Origin: Naganishia liquefaciens
Lineage: Eukaryota; Basidiomycota; Tremellomycetes; Filobasidiales; Filobasidiaceae
DNA: 64,000 nucleotides
Assembly: GCA_013423385.1 (NCBI GenBank)
Contig: BLZA01000053.1
Location: forward strand, 1-64,000
Reading direction: 5' to 3'
The notes below the pieces were generated by a model, which did no database searches, was not told the origin of the DNA, and saw only the letters and a list, made by a program, of their open reading frames with translations. How positions within the stretch are numbered: position 1 is the stretch's first letter; every line of letters begins with the position of its first letter. Shown here one piece after another: positions 1 through 9,612 of this stretch. The translations under genes and the position numbers were made by a program.

Positions 1-74
1 TCTTTGAATGTATACGTTAGTTCAATGTTGGTATCTGATACACCCCTAACCCCTAACCCCTAACCCCTAACCCT
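1..74 (+). mobile_element. 3' tail of a telomeric LINE (copy A) ending in telomere repeats
   Basis: The first 42 bases recur at 3368-3409, where they close a LINE that encodes a reverse transcriptase, so they are the 3' end of a second, outer copy whose body lies left of the window. The tail runs straight into CCCCTAA repeats, as at the other copy. That both copies share the tail and the same junction shows that the element ends in, or targets, telomere repeats. Known relatives with this habit are Cnl1 of Cryptococcus and the SART/TRAS elements of silkworm; the assignment to Cnl1 type is inference. Confidence 0.8.
43..74 (+). repeat. Telomere-type repeats, outer tract
   Basis: Four tandem CCCCTAA units followed by a partial unit. 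The C-rich strand reads left to right, as at the left end of a chromosome, so the telomere should lie to the left. The tract is short and internal and directly abuts open coding sequence on its right. Confidence 0.85.
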
Positions 75-959
75 CCCATCCACGAACATACGCCTCCTGT
101 GTCCCCCGTCGACCCGAACCACGCCGAACAACTCTCTGGAGACGACGAAGGACAAATTGCGGCTTACAGCCCCTCTCCACCCCAGTTGGACATCAACGAT
201 GACTTTTGGGAGTTCGTTGACCCCGAGGCAGTGAGTAGGCGATGTGATCCCTTGCCTGCATTCTCCGTTTGAACATACATTGCTGGCAGGTCCAGGGGGG
301 GAGACTATGCCAATTTTCCGCCAGCAACAACGTCAATGCGGGTCTCCTCTGTAACGACGTCGTCCCTACTGGCGAACCTTTGCCGCCCAGCTTCGTGGAC
401 TTCTGCCTCTCCCCTGGAATGCTTGGCTGGTACAACAACGAGTTGGTTTCAGGTGTACGTTGCCGACCCTTCCCTCTCTTCGCGCTCTGAAACCCTGCGT
501 CATCAGAATCTGGACAACGTGCTCTTCTCAGACGCCTTCTGCGCGGACGATGCGGTTCCCGTCGAGCACAACGGTTCCTGCACCGCTTCATTCGCTCCTC
601 TTGCCGAGCAGGACGTTCAAGCGCTCCTGGACCTTCTGCGTACCTTTACAGAAAGTCGAGCCACAGTAGCGGACGGTCTCTTCGCCGCCAACACCGTTCA
701 GCCGTCTATGCTCTTCGGCAAGTGCCGTTCTGACGCGAACGAAGATGGGGATGCCCAAGCGTTTTCGCTGCCAATTTACGCGGAGCCTGTAAGCGACATC
801 GCTCTCAGCAATGACGACATTCACATTATCCCCCGTCTTCTTGCCGCTACGGACACCGAGGCGGATACCGAGGCGGACGACTCGGACGACGATAACGTAC
901 TCGAGGCCGAGGACGTCATCCGTCACTACTGGCGGGGCAACGATATCAAATACCTATGA
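75..959 (+). pseudogene. 5'-truncated spliced gene of unknown function fused to telomere repeats
   Basis: An open frame starts at the edge of the telomere repeats and continues through two phase-0 introns, 231-289 (GTGAGT...GCAG) and 455-506 (GTACGT...CAG), to a stop at 957-959. No start codon is visible between the repeats and the first splice site, so the 5' end appears lost. The product would be about 250 residues; its C-terminal part is very acidic (a run of Glu, Asp and Thr near residue 220) and ends NDIKYL. No family is recognised. Two clean, phase-matched introns argue that this is host DNA and not reverse-transcribed LINE sequence. It could be a fragment of a subtelomeric gene family; whether it is expressed is unknown. 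Confidence 0.55.
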
Positions 960-1444
960 GCCTGCTAGAACCTACAACTCTTAGCTCTGCCTTACACACA
1001 CCGATCCGATCTACTAGTGTCCGCTTTCGAGGGCAACGATTGTTCCTTACGGCCGAACAACTCGACGTCAAGTTCAGCGGTTGCAAGTCCGCCTTGTGGT
1101 TCTACTGGAGAGCCAAGTCCGCTTCTCGAACGCCGACACACAGGATCATCAATCATCTCACAAAGAAAGGCGTCTCCGGTTTTTTTAGGGAGATGCTGTG
1201 GCACCTGTTGCCTGAAGCGATGCACTTCCAGTTGATCTCGCTTCGAAAGAAAGGCAAGTTGCATAATTGGCGATGGTAAGGACAACGTGGGCGTTGTCTT
1301 CTTCCTGGCGGGGAGAAATTGTAGAAAGACAGCTTGTATCTAGTAGCCAGCTGGGATGTGGCTGTACCTGCGGTACACACTATGACATCTGATGGCTGGT
1401 CTACAGTAAGCGTCGCCTTCCAATAGCCGCCTGGCGGGGTGCAA
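960..1444. other. Non-coding stretch in the subtelomeric patchwork
   Basis: No convincing exon chain or RNA gene. It lies between the truncated spliced gene and the minisatellite. The reading frames here are short, overlap on both strands and match no family I know. Confidence 0.5.
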
Positions 1445-1614
1445 AGTCCATTGCACCATAGTACATCGCATCATAGTGCATTGTACTTAGTACATTGTAC
1501 CATAGTCCACTGCGCCATAGTGCATTGTACCATAGTGCATTGCCCCAAAGTGCATTGTACCATAGTGCATTGAGCCATAGTGCATTGCACCATCATACAT
1601 TGTACTGAGTACAT
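1445..1614 (+). repeat. 15-bp minisatellite, about 11-12 units
   Basis: Diverged tandem copies of a 15-bp unit close to AGTGCATTGTACCAT. Units keep the phase with only one or two single-base length changes. The sequence between here and the LINE at 1858 shows no gene. Confidence 0.85.
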
Positions 1615-1857
1615 GACTCTATAGTTCAAGCCACCACGTAGCCTAATCTAATAGGTATGTATAGCTGGCTCCGCAGACCTGTAATAGCTCTCATGCTCTA
1701 TGATACACCCTTTGATTCACCTTTAATTCCGAAGCTACCTCGAGTGCAAGACTTCCTCAGGATTAGCTACCCTCGTCTTCCACTTAAGGTATTCTAAGTC
1801 CTAGCCACGTAATAAGAGTACATCGTTAGTGCTGGATCCCTCATACAACGGCGGAAT

Positions 1858-1877
1858 AATATCGCTATAGCGATATT
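1858..1877. repeat. Perfect 20-bp palindrome at the 5' edge of the LINE
   Basis: Ten bases (AATATCGCTA) are followed immediately by their exact reverse complement, with no spacer. LINE coding sequence begins within or just after it. It may mark a fold-back or end-joining junction; that is inference. Confidence 0.7.
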
Positions 1878-1883
1878 GACTTC

Positions 1884-3068
1884 TTGCCCGCGACAGATAT
1901 CGTCAAGGCGTTCCAGTCGTTTCGACACGACACCGCCCCGGGTATCTCAGGATGGACATTCCCGCTCCTCAAGATTGCCATGCGATCGGAACCGGTCCAA
2001 AACATGCTCACCACCTTGGTCACCATGCTTCTGGCTGGAACTGCCCCAGGACGTAGCTTTCTTTGCACGTCCCGGCTCATCGCACTGGACAAGCCTGATG
2101 GCGGAATTCGCCCAATTGCAGTTGGCGAACTCGTATATCGACTCTGCACGAAAGCCATCCTCGGACACTCATTCCGACCCGACAGCCTATCACCTTGTCA
2201 ATTCGGGGTGGGCACTCGAAGCGGAGTCGAGCCTCTAATTCGAGCGGTTCAGCGAGCGATGGATGGTACCATTCCTGATGAGAGCTTTACCCATGTCGCG
2301 TCGCTCGACTTCCGGAACGCCTTCAACACCCTTAGTCGGCGAGAAATGGCGGATTCCGTGAAAAAATACGCCCCCGGACTTTGGAAGGTCGCCAAGTGGG
2401 CGTACAACGACCCGTCAGACCTAGTCTTTGGCGGTCTCCAAGACGTACCCGAGGTAATCCAGTCCAGTCAAGGCGTTCGACAAGGAGACCCGCTTGGACC
2501 TTTATTGTTCTCGGTCGGGATCGGTCCTATGCTCGACCAGCTGGTCACTGCCCTTGGCCACGAAGCCTTGGTGTTGGCCTACCTGGACGATGTTTACATC
2601 CTTAGCAAGTCGCCGAATATCCTTCAAGAAGTCTTCAATTTCTTCAGCACCGATGCTGTCTCTCTACAACTCAACACCGCTAAAACAGCGATCGTGTCCT
2701 TGGAAGAGATGAAGACCTCTGGAATGCAAATCTTAGGCGCTTGCGTGGGTCCGACGGAAGCTCGTAGAGGGTTCCTTGAAGGCAAGATCGGTAAACTAGA
2801 AGAGAAAATGGCCAGACTGTCCGGTCTTCCGCACCAACACAGCCTCCTGCTGCTGCGCCAATGCTTGCAACAGGAACTTCGACATCTTCAGAGGTGTCTT
2901 CTCGGCGACGGATTGGAGGATCTCTGGAGAAGGTTGAATAGATCGATCTGGGACACCGCCAATTTGATTCGGGGAGCCAACACTGACAACTTGACGCAAT
3001 CTCAATTAAAGACCGCCGACATCCTTTACTCCTTGCCGGTCAGGTTGGGAGGCCTTGGTAACCCCTAA
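1884..3068 (+). CDS. LINE reverse transcriptase (truncated)
   Basis: About 394 residues of a non-LTR reverse transcriptase. Fingers motif LDKPDGGIRPIAV is near residue 69, palm motif A with LDFRNAFNT near residue 142, motif B with RQGDPLGPLL near residue 200, catalytic YLDD near residue 234, and the LNTAKT motif near residue 264. There is no ATG at the left boundary: the frame opens upstream into the palindrome, so the N terminus is absent. It ends at LGGLGNP, where relatives continue into a thumb and often a restriction-like endonuclease. By motif style it resembles Cnl1 of Cryptococcus; exact clade needs a tree. Not expected to be functional. Confidence 0.85.
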   Translation: MPATDIVKAFQSFRHDTAPGISGWTFPLLKIAMRSEPVQNMLTTLVTMLLAGTAPGRSFLCTSRLIALDKPDGGIRPIAVGELVYRLCTKAILGHSFRPDSLSPCQFGVGTRSGVEPLIRAVQRAMDGTIPDESFTHVASLDFRNAFNTLSRREMADSVKKYAPGLWKVAKWAYNDPSDLVFGGLQDVPEVIQSSQGVRQGDPLGPLLFSVGIGPMLDQLVTALGHEALVLAYLDDVYILSKSPNILQEVFNFFSTDAVSLQLNTAKTAIVSLEEMKTSGMQILGACVGPTEARRGFLEGKIGKLEEKMARLSGLPHQHSLLLLRQCLQQELRHLQRCLLGDGLEDLWRRLNRSIWDTANLIRGANTDNLTQSQLKTADILYSLPVRLGGLGNP

Positions 3069-3367
3069 GATTCAAAGGCAAATGACAAGATCCGACGACT
3101 ACCTCGAAATGGCATTCCATTCACGCCCCTCGTTTTTACCGTCGGAGGGATGATGGATAAGGGGACGGTAGAGGTAATGAAGTTGTGGCAGGACACGATG
3201 CCTCCTGCGGCCTTTTCGACCCTGTGCCAACAGCTATCTCTGATCTTGTTGAAGGCACGCGCGAGATCGTTCGTTCTGTAGGCGGGGTATATAGGAGAGA
3301 GAGAAATCTTGAACTTGGGTGGGTGCAAATATCGAAGGAATTGGAGTTTATGATCTTGGTAGAATAG

Positions 3368-3409
3368 TCTTTGAATGTATACGTTAGTTCAATGTTGGTA
3401 TCTGATACA
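3368..3409 (+). repeat. LINE 3' tail, second copy
   Basis: Repeats window positions 1-42 and precedes telomere repeats at both places. The near-perfect match suggests the two insertions are related and not very old. Confidence 0.85.
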
Positions 3410-3447
3410 CCCCTAACCCTAACCCCTAACCCCTAACCCTACCCTAA
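3410..3447 (+). repeat. Telomere-type repeats, inner tract
   Basis: A mixture of CCCCTAA and CCCTAA units in the same orientation as the outer tract. This is the inner, probably older, chromosome-end boundary of the patchwork. Confidence 0.85.
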
Positions 3448-5784: not shown

Positions 5785-7408
5785 GTGAGGAGTCGAGTGG
5801 TAGTGAGGCGAATGGCGAAGATGGGCCAGGGTGTTATGGCTATGATAGATTTGTGAATGAGAGCCATTCGATATCACTACAGGCGGCGACTGAGCGTAGG
5901 GTTAGGTGGGAGACTGGCATGAGGTCGTTCAAGCTGACTGCGGATGAAGGCACAAACGGGTTCCTTGAAACGTCAGGCGGATCCGGTATTTACTGCGAGA
6001 AAAAAGGAACCGACCAGAGGCGTGAGTCCGTCTGTCACTCTCCGCCCTTCTCTGTATATTCACTTAGCTAACCTGAGATCGACTTCTTCGTATTCACCAG
6101 CCTTAGAAAACCGACCGCCCGCATCATTTGACGGAAGAGGTAGCTGGCGGCGGCATGTTTGTCGAGTTGTTCGACGCGGGTGAGCTAGAAGGCGGGAGAT
6201 TCAGCTCGTTCAGAGCCTATACCAACAAAAGAATTTGACACCCGAAGTCATTTTCACCTACATGCAAACCGAGTATAACCGTCGAGTGAATGTTGGAGAA
6301 ACGTCTTCAGCTCTTGCGGTCAAGCAAAACAAAGACGATTCACAAAACAAAAAATGGTGTGAAGTTCACAAGTACAACTTCAGCCATACCACCAACGAAG
6401 GCAAGGTATTGGCAGGCAAGCGCAAGAACGTGAGCCATCAAGACTCCTCTCGTGCAAACGTCTCTTCAACCGTCAACAACGAGAATGAATCGCACAAACC
6501 TTCGACTATCCCCGGAACTGCAACAGCTCTTTTCGTTCGATTCACCAGCAAAAACTCATTTTTTAACGAGTCCGGTGCTACCGACCATATGGTCTGCACG
6601 GAAACCCATCTTCACGACGTAACACCCTTACGACGGGAGGTCCTTGTTGGCGGAGGTAGATCTCTATGCTCTACTCACCAAGGCACACTACGCCTTGACG
6701 GAACGCTCAATCTCCTCTGTGTCCTTTTGGTACCGAACTTGGAATGCAACTTGTTATCTGTTCGCAAGTTAATTCAATGTGGTCTCACCGTCAAGTTTGG
6801 CAGCAACGATTGCACCATCTTCAAGCAAGGCAAACACATCGCGACTGCACCACACCGAGCTGGCTTATACACTCTGCAGGTCAGCGAACCATTTTCTCTA
6901 GCTCACATAGTGTCTAAGACTGATCTGCTTACTCACTGGCACCACAGATTGGGTCACCTCAATTTTCGGGAAGTCTTTAGAATGGATAGTGAAGGTTGTT
7001 AGACGGTGACTGTGAAAATGTATCGAATCATGATCTAGCATATGCATTCTGCGAAAGCTGCGTTCTTGGAAATAGAAGACGATTGAACACGCATTCAGCA
7101 TTAAAACGTGCACAGAGACCTAATGATCTGGTTCACATCGATATTTGGGGTCCAGCAAGAACACCTTCCCTCGGGGGAAATCGATATTTCTTGACTTGTT
7201 ACGACGATCATTCAAGATACACTCGTCTCTATCTTCTCAAGAATAAATCAGAAGCGTTACGAGCCTTCGAACAATTCATCATTCTGGTTGGTAATCAATG
7301 CGAAACCTCGATTAGAAGAGTCCGCATGGACAACGGGAGTGAATTCACTTCAAATCGTTTCAAGCACTTGCTTGCCAACAATGGCATTCTCGAGAATTTG
7401 ATTACTCC

Positions 7409-7684
7409 TAAAAGAATCAGAGTAGAAATGTCTAATGAATATTAAAGGTCACTCCTAGTTAATGAAGAACTCACCTAAAAGAATCAGAGTAGAAATGTCT
7501 GATCTTTTAGGTGTTCGTACAAAGTGGGAAACTAAATAAAAAGAGTTTATATATTGCTGCAAGATGAATCGAGCACAGTGAGATGACATATTGACAAACC
7601 ATTCACCAGAAGCGCGATTGAGGCGCAAAGAATTTACGTGTCCTTTAAAAGTGACGTGGTGTTCAAAGTCGTTGATTCCCGACA
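7409..7684 (-). mobile_element. Solo LTR of the same copia family, inserted in reverse
   Basis: This 276-bp block is the reverse complement of an LTR like the one at 9613-9867, beginning TGTCGGGAATCAACG on the minus strand. It sits inside the integrase region of the copia fossil and is flanked by a direct 5-bp repeat ACTCC (7404-7408 and 7685-7689), the target duplication size known for copia elements. No internal coding part accompanies it, so it is a solo LTR left by recombination. Confidence 0.85.
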
Positions 7685-9612
7685 ACTCCTGGGAACCGTG
7701 CGCAAAATGGTCGAGTCGAGCGACAACATCTCACGATCCTGAACTCAGTCCGAACCATCTTGATTGATTCAAAACTTCCTCAAGAATTCTGGGCTGCGGC
7801 AGCAAATTTCGTGACTCATGTTCGAACTCGAATAACAAATGCGAAAACAAGAAAAATACCTCACACAATGTGGTCCGGCGAAAATGTGGCTCATGAGACA
7901 CTACGGCCTTTTGGATCTCAGATTTACTTTCGAGACCACACAGAGTCTGATAAACTCCAAGCGCGATATCGACCGGGCATCTTGTTGGGATGGCGCGAAG
8001 ACAGTAATTCCTATGTTAGATATCGGGATCCACTCAAGAAATCCGTCAACTATTCAAGAGATGTCGTCTACTCTCCACTCGAGATCTCTCACGCCAAATC
8101 GAAGTTCGAGCCAGCGATGAACAGTTGGATATTGTCGACTTGACAAGCCATAACATGCAACAAAGAGAGGAACCGAAAAAAACAATCATCAAACGCCCGA
8201 CGTACATGTCGCATCATTGCCTCCGACTCCCACAGCTCAGCGGTATTCGACTATCGAGCTTGAAGCTGAATCGACTGCAAACATTTCACCTTCACCCTCT
8301 CCAAAAGATCCTTCGACATCGCTGCGTCGCGTGCCTTCATATGACATACTTGGTCATTATGAGAATGATAGCGAATCGACGACGAGCTTGCCCTTGGCCA
8401 GATTGCGCAAGCTGCTGCGTATATTTCAAACGGAGAGAATCCCAAGTCTTACAAAGAAGCAAGAAATTCACCACAATGGGAGCAATGGAAAACTGCTTCA
8501 ACAAGGCTTTCGACACCTGGATGAAAAGCCAAGGTTTGGTCTCTTCGAGAGCCGATGCAGGTCTATACATCATCAAGAAGGCCGACACGATTGTTTTACT
8601 CTCGGTACACATCGACGATCAACTTGTTGCGTCGAATTCACGACCCGTGTTGGACAGATTCAAAAAGGATCTTAACGAGCGATTTGAATGCGCGGACAAC
8701 GGTCCAGTCAACTACTTTCTCGGTTTCAACGTTCGTCCCAATCGACAACAAAAGATACTATATATTGGACAGGAAATCTATATCGATTCACTGTTAGAAA
8801 AATTCGAAATGACCCGCTGCAATCCTGTCAGGACACCACTGCCGCCTGAATTTAAGCTGACAGCAGCATCAGACGACGAAGTAGAAGAGGCAAAGCATTT
8901 GGAATTTTCGAAGATCGCCAGATCTGGTCTTGATCTGTCAATTATCACACGGCCAGATATATCGTATGCTGGTGGCGTCTTGGCGCGATACATCGGTCGT
9001 TGGTCTCTAGCACATTTCAAGGCTGCCAGACATCTGCTGCGATATCTACGAGGTACAATTGATCTGTGCTTAACATTCGATGCCAACACTGGTCAAAAGC
9101 TCCTTTGCGGATTCGCTGATGCCGATTGGGGAGGATGTCAAGATACTCGCAGATCTATCTCTGGATACCCTTTCAAAACTTTTGGAGGTTTAAGGTCTTG
9201 GCGAGCTCGACGCGAACCCACTGTGTCGTTCTCCACCGCCGAAGCGGAATATCTTTCTTCTGCCGATGCCACAGAACAAGCGGTATGGCTAAAAACACTA
9301 CTTGCAGATCTCGTCTTTCATCAAGACAATGCTACAACGATCTACGATTACAACATGGGCGCTATTCTTCTATCAAAGAATCCGGTACATCATGATCGAT
9401 CCAAACACATATCTTTGCGACATCATTTCCTCAGAGATCAAGTCAACGAGCATGTTATCAAGTTGGAACATGTTCTTTCCAAAATCAATCAAGCAGACCT
9501 CTTTACAAAATCATTGTCAGCGGATCTGTCTCAACAATTATGAAACGAATTCGGCCTCACGCAAAGAATGAAGCCACCTCAACACACCCCGTGATATTCA
9601 GTCGAGGGGGAG

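Follow-up and report, generated by a model that had tools for sequence, protein, structure and literature searches.

What built the left end of this scaffold of Naganishia liquefaciens N6, and in what order? The window, meaning the whole stretch of DNA analysed, comprises positions 1-64,000 of scaffold C25 (509,295 bases) of this tremellomycete yeast, whose source was Japan Trench sediment and whose assembly was built from Illumina paired-end and mate-pair reads (PMC7679087). Base 1 of the window is the first base of the short-read scaffold. Two identical 42-base tails of long interspersed nuclear elements (LINEs) lie on the same strand at 1-42 and 3368-3409, 3367 bases apart, and adjoin CCCCTAA/CCCTAA repeats directly at 43-74 and 3410-3447, as had been described in the original prediction; repeats are the places where short-read assemblies break off. 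We conclude that this is very probably a chromosome end carrying telomere-targeted non-long-terminal-repeat (non-LTR) retrotransposons of the R2/CRE type, related to CNL1, MoTeR and FoTeR, which arrived by the cycle of insertion and capping proposed below.

A genome search with the 42-base tail found 43 places with at most three mismatches, 24 of them exact, and none with the reversed pattern. The nearer scaffold end lay within 100 bases of 11 places, 1 kb of 23, 3 kb of 31, 8 kb of 39 and 17 kb of 42, the one other place being 465 kb away; the terminal 20 kb of the scaffolds together make up about 6% of the genome. Of the 42 near-end places, 41 had the 5′ side of the element facing outward, in agreement with the predicted arrangement of a LINE at the telomere, its 3′ end centromere-ward on C-rich repeats and the chromosome end on the left of the window. 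We also read the DNA at all 56 scaffold ends (about 0.6-10 kb each, with no conflicting bases in the layout). A tail of this type, family 1, lay within 10 kb of 32 of these ends, always with the 5′ side outward, which bears out the expectation of repeated insertion at many ends. An exhaustive scan of the end DNA, allowing at most six mismatches in the last 29 nt, gave 49 tails (reversed control, 0), and 47 of these combined the outward 5′ orientation with a position within 20 kb of an end.

The junctions were nearly uniform. Telomere-type repeats followed 48 of the 49 tails, nearly always in one register: CCCCTA came directly after 37 tails, CCCCCTA after six, ACCCCTA after one and ACCCCCTA after one, so that 45 tails led into CCCCTA or CCCCCTA, two of them with a single A in front. 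Three further tails were followed by variant repeats of the CCCTTA type, the CCCCTG type or a shifted type (CCCTTAACCCC; CCCCTGACCCC; and shifted AACCCCTAA behind a decayed tail end). The family-1 junction reads GATACA|CCCCT. Another LINE piece was found within 25 bases in 12 of the 49 tail arrays. C-rich repeats thus lie directly under the element 3′ ends in a near-fixed register, with the 5′ ends outward; the copies are stacked and mostly 5′-truncated, and many pieces have telomere repeats on their outer side as well. Among seven representatives (21 pairs), the last 47 nt of the tail had a mean identity of 0.96 (minimum 0.91), and the untranslated region (UTR) just upstream had 0.60 (minimum 0.44), a comparison from which the coding-sequence mean was set aside, as row C12L_2937 has little sequence upstream of the UTR. 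A folded RNA signal in the tail was considered and rejected: three family-1 tails had no folding advantage over shuffles (z +0.9 to +1.6), and the family-2 tail gave z -1.0. Recognition of the tail, if any, would therefore be by sequence.

The element protein points to the same class. Stop-to-stop frames of 1193, 1168, 1092 and 944 codons were found in the C27, C17, C1 and C2 copies, the last being 5′-truncated; the C27 protein has 1162 residues from its first ATG, and intact copies are about 1160 amino acids long. N-terminal finger-like CCHH pairs (recognized by eye) are followed in the C27 protein by a reverse transcriptase and a C-terminal CCHC-RH-EP-D-D set, of which the CCHC, RH, EP and two D were unchanged throughout alignments of 22 and 34 proteins. 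A PDB profile search was led by R2 proteins (E 3.2e-20), with the CCHC part aligned weakly (4.7 bits), and the AlphaFold model of a relative, P0002 (mean pLDDT 78, pTM 0.72), had R2 structures at all fold-match ranks from 1 to 7. The variant pattern C-X2-C-X6..10-H-X3-C-X9-RHE-X18..22-E-X7..9-RND-X16-D fitted 23 of 139 proteins examined (121 LINE proteins and 18 palmitoyltransferase hits). Of 14 genome copies, 11 fitted a looser REL form; the three that did not were the first frame of C16R, the C22R frame, which is cut, and the copy in the window, the tested frame stopping short of the region or, in the window copy, the region being missing. A single open reading frame (ORF) with a non-LTR reverse transcriptase, a 3′ end on telomere repeats and an outward 5′ end are what a telomeric LINE of the CRE/R2 type would have. 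Judged by sequence, intact copies are predicted to encode an R2-type reverse transcriptase with a REL-like region and to be relatives of CNL1, MoTeR and FoTeR.

More than one family is involved. Family 2 (at C1R, the right end of C1; 1092 codons) has its own 3′ end, seen in five copies in the DNA read, each as GCTAGTA CCTAACCCATAA CCCCTAA, and family 3, read once at the right end of C22, has the 3′ end GCACCCCAGAACCCCATAT followed by CCCCTAACCCCTAACCCC. The LINE families interleave at ends: the order at C1R is telomere, family 2 with a complete ORF, then telomere plus family 1 twice over, and lastly a telomere unit. In a 53-row tree, the genome copies fell in three places with environmental proteins between them (four label changes, at least three of them forced, by a quick method); its rows include C. 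neoformans, Kwoniella and Filobasidium and none from MoTeR, CRE or R2, and its relatives are 39 hand-picked among the 120 matches listed of 455. The C1R family-2 and C27R family-1 copies have about 390 bp of 5′ region in common at 90% despite reverse transcriptase identities to the window copy of 64% and 73%, respectively, suggesting exchange between families. Tandem repeats of 84 and 120 bp were also observed upstream of the LINE ORF (C16R 288-750 and 925-1202, C17Rint 47-325, end-oriented).

Telomerase itself is encoded in this genome: a telomerase RNA-binding domain of TERT was found at C2:542700 (46 bits against a cut-off of 25), CCCCTAA arrays stand at scaffold ends and telomerase-type repeats separate the element layers. 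With the telomerase domain over the cut-off, the idea that LINEs act in place of telomerase was rejected. The inner flanks of all 55 telomere arrays with at least two units differed from one another, indicating many separate events. Of the 55 arrays, 23 end exactly after TAA, and G comes next in 22 of these; over all 55, the base next to the array was G in 35, A in 10, C in seven and T in three (binomial P ~2e-9 for at least 35 of 55 at a G background of 0.254). A cap-phase null of 1/7 ignores the variable C runs. At LINE junctions, G came next in 12 of 16, including two junctions on single units that lie outside the 55 arrays. For 11 of the 12 G junctions there was a reference copy to compare, and the best reference carried G each time, showing that the G is native at 11 LINE junctions. 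It is as if telomere addition preferred ends with a 3′-terminal C, and we infer that the telomerase RNA may carry a G beside its template. The same G bias at LINE junctions and at arrays in general suggests that LINE 5′ ends were free when they received their caps.

This bias bears on an alternative in which the same elements insert internally, the REL nuclease nicking an existing telomere tract so that the outer repeats are old telomere. The REL-like region of most genome copies is in keeping with such nicking, as is the finding that the FRR1 gene of C. neoformans can receive CNL1, according to the available portion of a 2026 paper (PMC12810828). The G beside the outer caps, predominant at LINE junctions and in arrays generally, looks instead like telomerase healing of free ends. 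We therefore regard internal nicking as possible but somewhat doubtful as the general route, and some copies may still be nicked internally.

A search for the telomerase RNA gene with the pattern CTAACCCCTAAG gave 21 places (reversed control, 2) and no candidate, since each place was either no more than about 8 kb from an end, or in the end region of C17, or at the C17 interior site. Roughly six TTAGGGG repeats were noticed by eye in an apparent intron of an HSP70-like gene at C27:178550-178600 (L111). The C3R, C4R, C11L and C23L ends carry another repeat (GCTAGGGGCGCACCTGCCGCATGGCTGGACG), unlike telomere or LINE, and the C6R and C20L ends have one further repeat in common.

The window end, which the original prediction took for two head-to-tail LINEs, proved to be composite, with an LTR-element remnant, a LINE middle piece, a telomere unit and a separate LINE 3′ piece in the interval from the first tail to the second. 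Its features are as follows.

1-42, plus strand: 3′ tail of LINE A, a family-1 element, truncated where the scaffold starts; one of the exact matches in the genome search.
43-74, plus strand: telomere repeats between LINE A and the capped sequence (TRF period 7, 100% matches over 42-73; boundary C3T| at 74).
75-1319, plus strand: probably the 3′ part of an LTR-retrotransposon internal region, truncated on the left at the telomere junction; a purine run adjoins the LTR.
1320-1895, plus strand: LTR, TG...CA, 576 bp, adjoining LINE B; 87-88% identity to two C17 copies with the same ends.
1896-3059, plus strand: LINE B, a middle piece (reverse transcriptase) without 5′ and 3′ parts; 95% to the C2R copy.
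3060-3068, plus strand: AACCCCTAA, one telomere unit standing alone where B meets C, missing from reference copies at this joint.
3069-3409, plus strand: LINE C, a 5′-truncated 341-bp 3′ piece with its tail at 3368-3409; 94% to C2R and 98.75% to C25R (160-base query).
3410-3447, plus strand: telomere repeats that follow LINE C and end in CCCTAA|G (TRF and boundary reading).

Positions 75-1895 probably derive from the 3′ part of an LTR retrotransposon that was truncated on the left at the telomere. The purine-rich run GGCGGGGAGAAAT at 1307-1319 stands directly before the LTR, which we take to be the typical look of such a 3′ part, and the LTR is repeated elsewhere in the genome. The open frame at 273-959 could be assigned to no family, and Pfam searches with two frames in 75-1319 gave nothing below E 0.1 and no recognized internal domain. 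An assignment of 75-1319 to a LINE 5′ half was rejected, as the segment matched no LINE copy in the genome search and is joined to the LTR. LINE B begins directly after the LTR, and Pfam RVT_1 was matched on 1860-3065 (E 8.7e-17). Two side observations concern LTR elements: a 15-bp minisatellite inside the LTR (1445-1602) varies in copy number between LTR copies, and broken LTR-element frames lie just inside the LINE stack at 6184-9540, where 6184-6999 matches Pol_BBD and, weakly, gag_pre-integrs; we presume this element to be copia-like from knowledge of these families.

The joint between B and C admits another reading, in which 1896-3409 is a single LINE copy that has lost 0.7 kb from its interior and AACCCCTAA is a chance filler. 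Both pieces match the same reference copy, B spanning 757-1920 and C 2623-2962 on C2R, with about 0.7 kb including the REL region absent between them, and fillers do arise in end joining. Nevertheless, the nine bases are an exact telomere unit with the TAA|G end of 22 other caps, and outside arrays this 9-mer occurs only once more in the window (other strand, 13017). We consider a single deleted copy rather unlikely and retain two separate pieces.

The stretch 1-3447 is a record of insertion, terminal loss and healing, and the cycle that we propose would account for it as follows. Element RNA, held by its conserved 47-nt tail, would be reverse-transcribed from the 3′ end of the G-rich strand (TTAGGGG); the exposed complementary DNA end, or an end shortened later by loss, would receive a telomerase cap; and the fresh telomere repeats would become the target for the next insertion. 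In the window, the cycle would have run at least twice. From right to left, oldest first, a telomere on the old end would have received LINE C, truncated and capped; LINE B would then have joined without its own 3′ end, followed by insertion of the LTR element into B, the order of these two steps being one that we infer. The last events would have been loss from the end as far as the LTR element, addition of telomere repeats and the arrival of LINE A.

Alternatively, recombination or break-induced copying between subtelomeres might have been the main way in which the stacks spread, as is reported for MoTeR arrays in the available text of PMC7367193; some subtelomeres here do have sequence in common (the C5R and C6L flanks). 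We judge this improbable because copied arrays would have inner flanks and truncation points in common, and both differ. That the short-read assembler collapsed or misjoined repeats is very improbable: the assembly is Illumina-only and many scaffolds end inside a repeat, but the junctions recur with many different flanks in nearly constant order and register.

Several observations weigh against telomere-targeted insertion followed by capping. The strict published REL pattern (PMC12857005) matched none of the 139 proteins. One tail, at C13:6144, lacks a full repeat and has CCCCC, with the next LINE piece adjoining; another lies in the interior of C17 (C17:1165500), about 465 kb inside the scaffold, and an inverted one lies 16.6 kb from an end (C17:1613918). 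Neither a family-1 tail nor a telomere repeat was present in the stretch read at 15 of the 56 ends, some of these stretches being only about 600 bases; among them, C26L reads N and C22R holds the family-3 LINE. LINE B has no tail and stops at one lone telomere unit, an ending that simple tail-primed insertion leaves unexplained. The short-read and mate-pair assembly does not determine array lengths or the sequence past scaffold ends.

At the interior site (C17:1165500-1168480, L072), the family-1 tail is on the minus strand with repeats on its left, and plus-strand CCCCTAA repeats stand 2.9 kb to the right of the tail, so that two ends are face-to-face; no N run occurs in the 7 kb read. The site looks like the relic of a telomere-telomere fusion in the largest scaffold. 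The available text on Cryptococcus and Kwoniella fusions states that interstitial arrays were not found there (PMC11185503).

A bolder and, in our view, unlikely reading is that the ends are kept by two kinds of reverse transcriptase in turn. Telomerase would seed on a 3′-terminal C, and its RNA would accordingly have a G next to the template CCCCUAAG. The LINE families, at least three and all of them old, would each have evolved to finish in, or lie against, C-rich sequence resembling the telomere, with their RNA pairing with the G-rich overhang. Telomere length would then depend on how LINE addition, terminal loss and capping by telomerase offset one another. The junctions show unusually clearly where elements land and where telomere repeats restart: they fix the element 3′ end at one CCCCTAA step and make the 47-nt tail a testable signal, and the caps document where telomeres have started naturally in a basidiomycete yeast, offering a guess at the edge of the telomerase RNA template. 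As far as the available source text goes, the host is an environmental yeast already in use for BRCA2/RAD51 genetics.

Among known systems, HeT-A/TART/TAHRE of Drosophila also form head-to-tail retroelement layers at ends with the 3′ side inward. The predicted likeness to these elements stands for the layout only; here, telomerase-type repeats lie between the layers and telomerase is encoded, so that a fly-like replacement of telomerase does not apply. MoTeR1/2 of Magnaporthe oryzae, likened here by description, have a CCCTAA telomere unit rather than CCCCTAA; the available text reports 5′ ends nearest the chromosome end, truncation, de novo telomere formation, LTR-element insertions and 19 of 24 de novo telomeres formed by extension of 1-4 nt seeds (PMC7367193). 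FoTeR of Fusarium oxysporum, to judge from the accessible part of PMC12857005, has zinc fingers, a reverse transcriptase, a REL-like region and a 3′ end on canonical telomere repeats, and VNTRs mentioned in its abstract resemble the 84- and 120-bp tandem repeats here; it differs in the REL residues and spacing, which here are RHE, RND and X16. The same source groups Cnl1 with MoTeR1 and CRE. Our literature search found no report of such elements in Naganishia, with most subscription journals outside its coverage. The predicted likeness to the Cnl1 (CNL1) arrays of C. neoformans, a member of the same class of fungi, is upheld: in the available text, CNL1 is nearest to MoTeR and forms subtelomeric arrays with telomere-repeat flanks (PMC12810828), as do the end-of-chromosome arrays here. 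The same text holds that its 'precise sequence specificity remains undefined' and that its target duplications contain CACCCCT, a motif also contained in the GATACA|CCCCT junction here (PMC12810828). Residues 480-1162 of the protein here are 40% identical over 98% to a C. neoformans protein that we presume to be CNL1-like, its record not being so named. The genus is another one, the Naganishia copies lie on a branch apart from the C. neoformans proteins and three families are present here. The kind of element is thus already known from other fungi and the member is new, as are the composite anatomy, the three-family mix at ends, the near-invariant tail and the bias of the caps to G.

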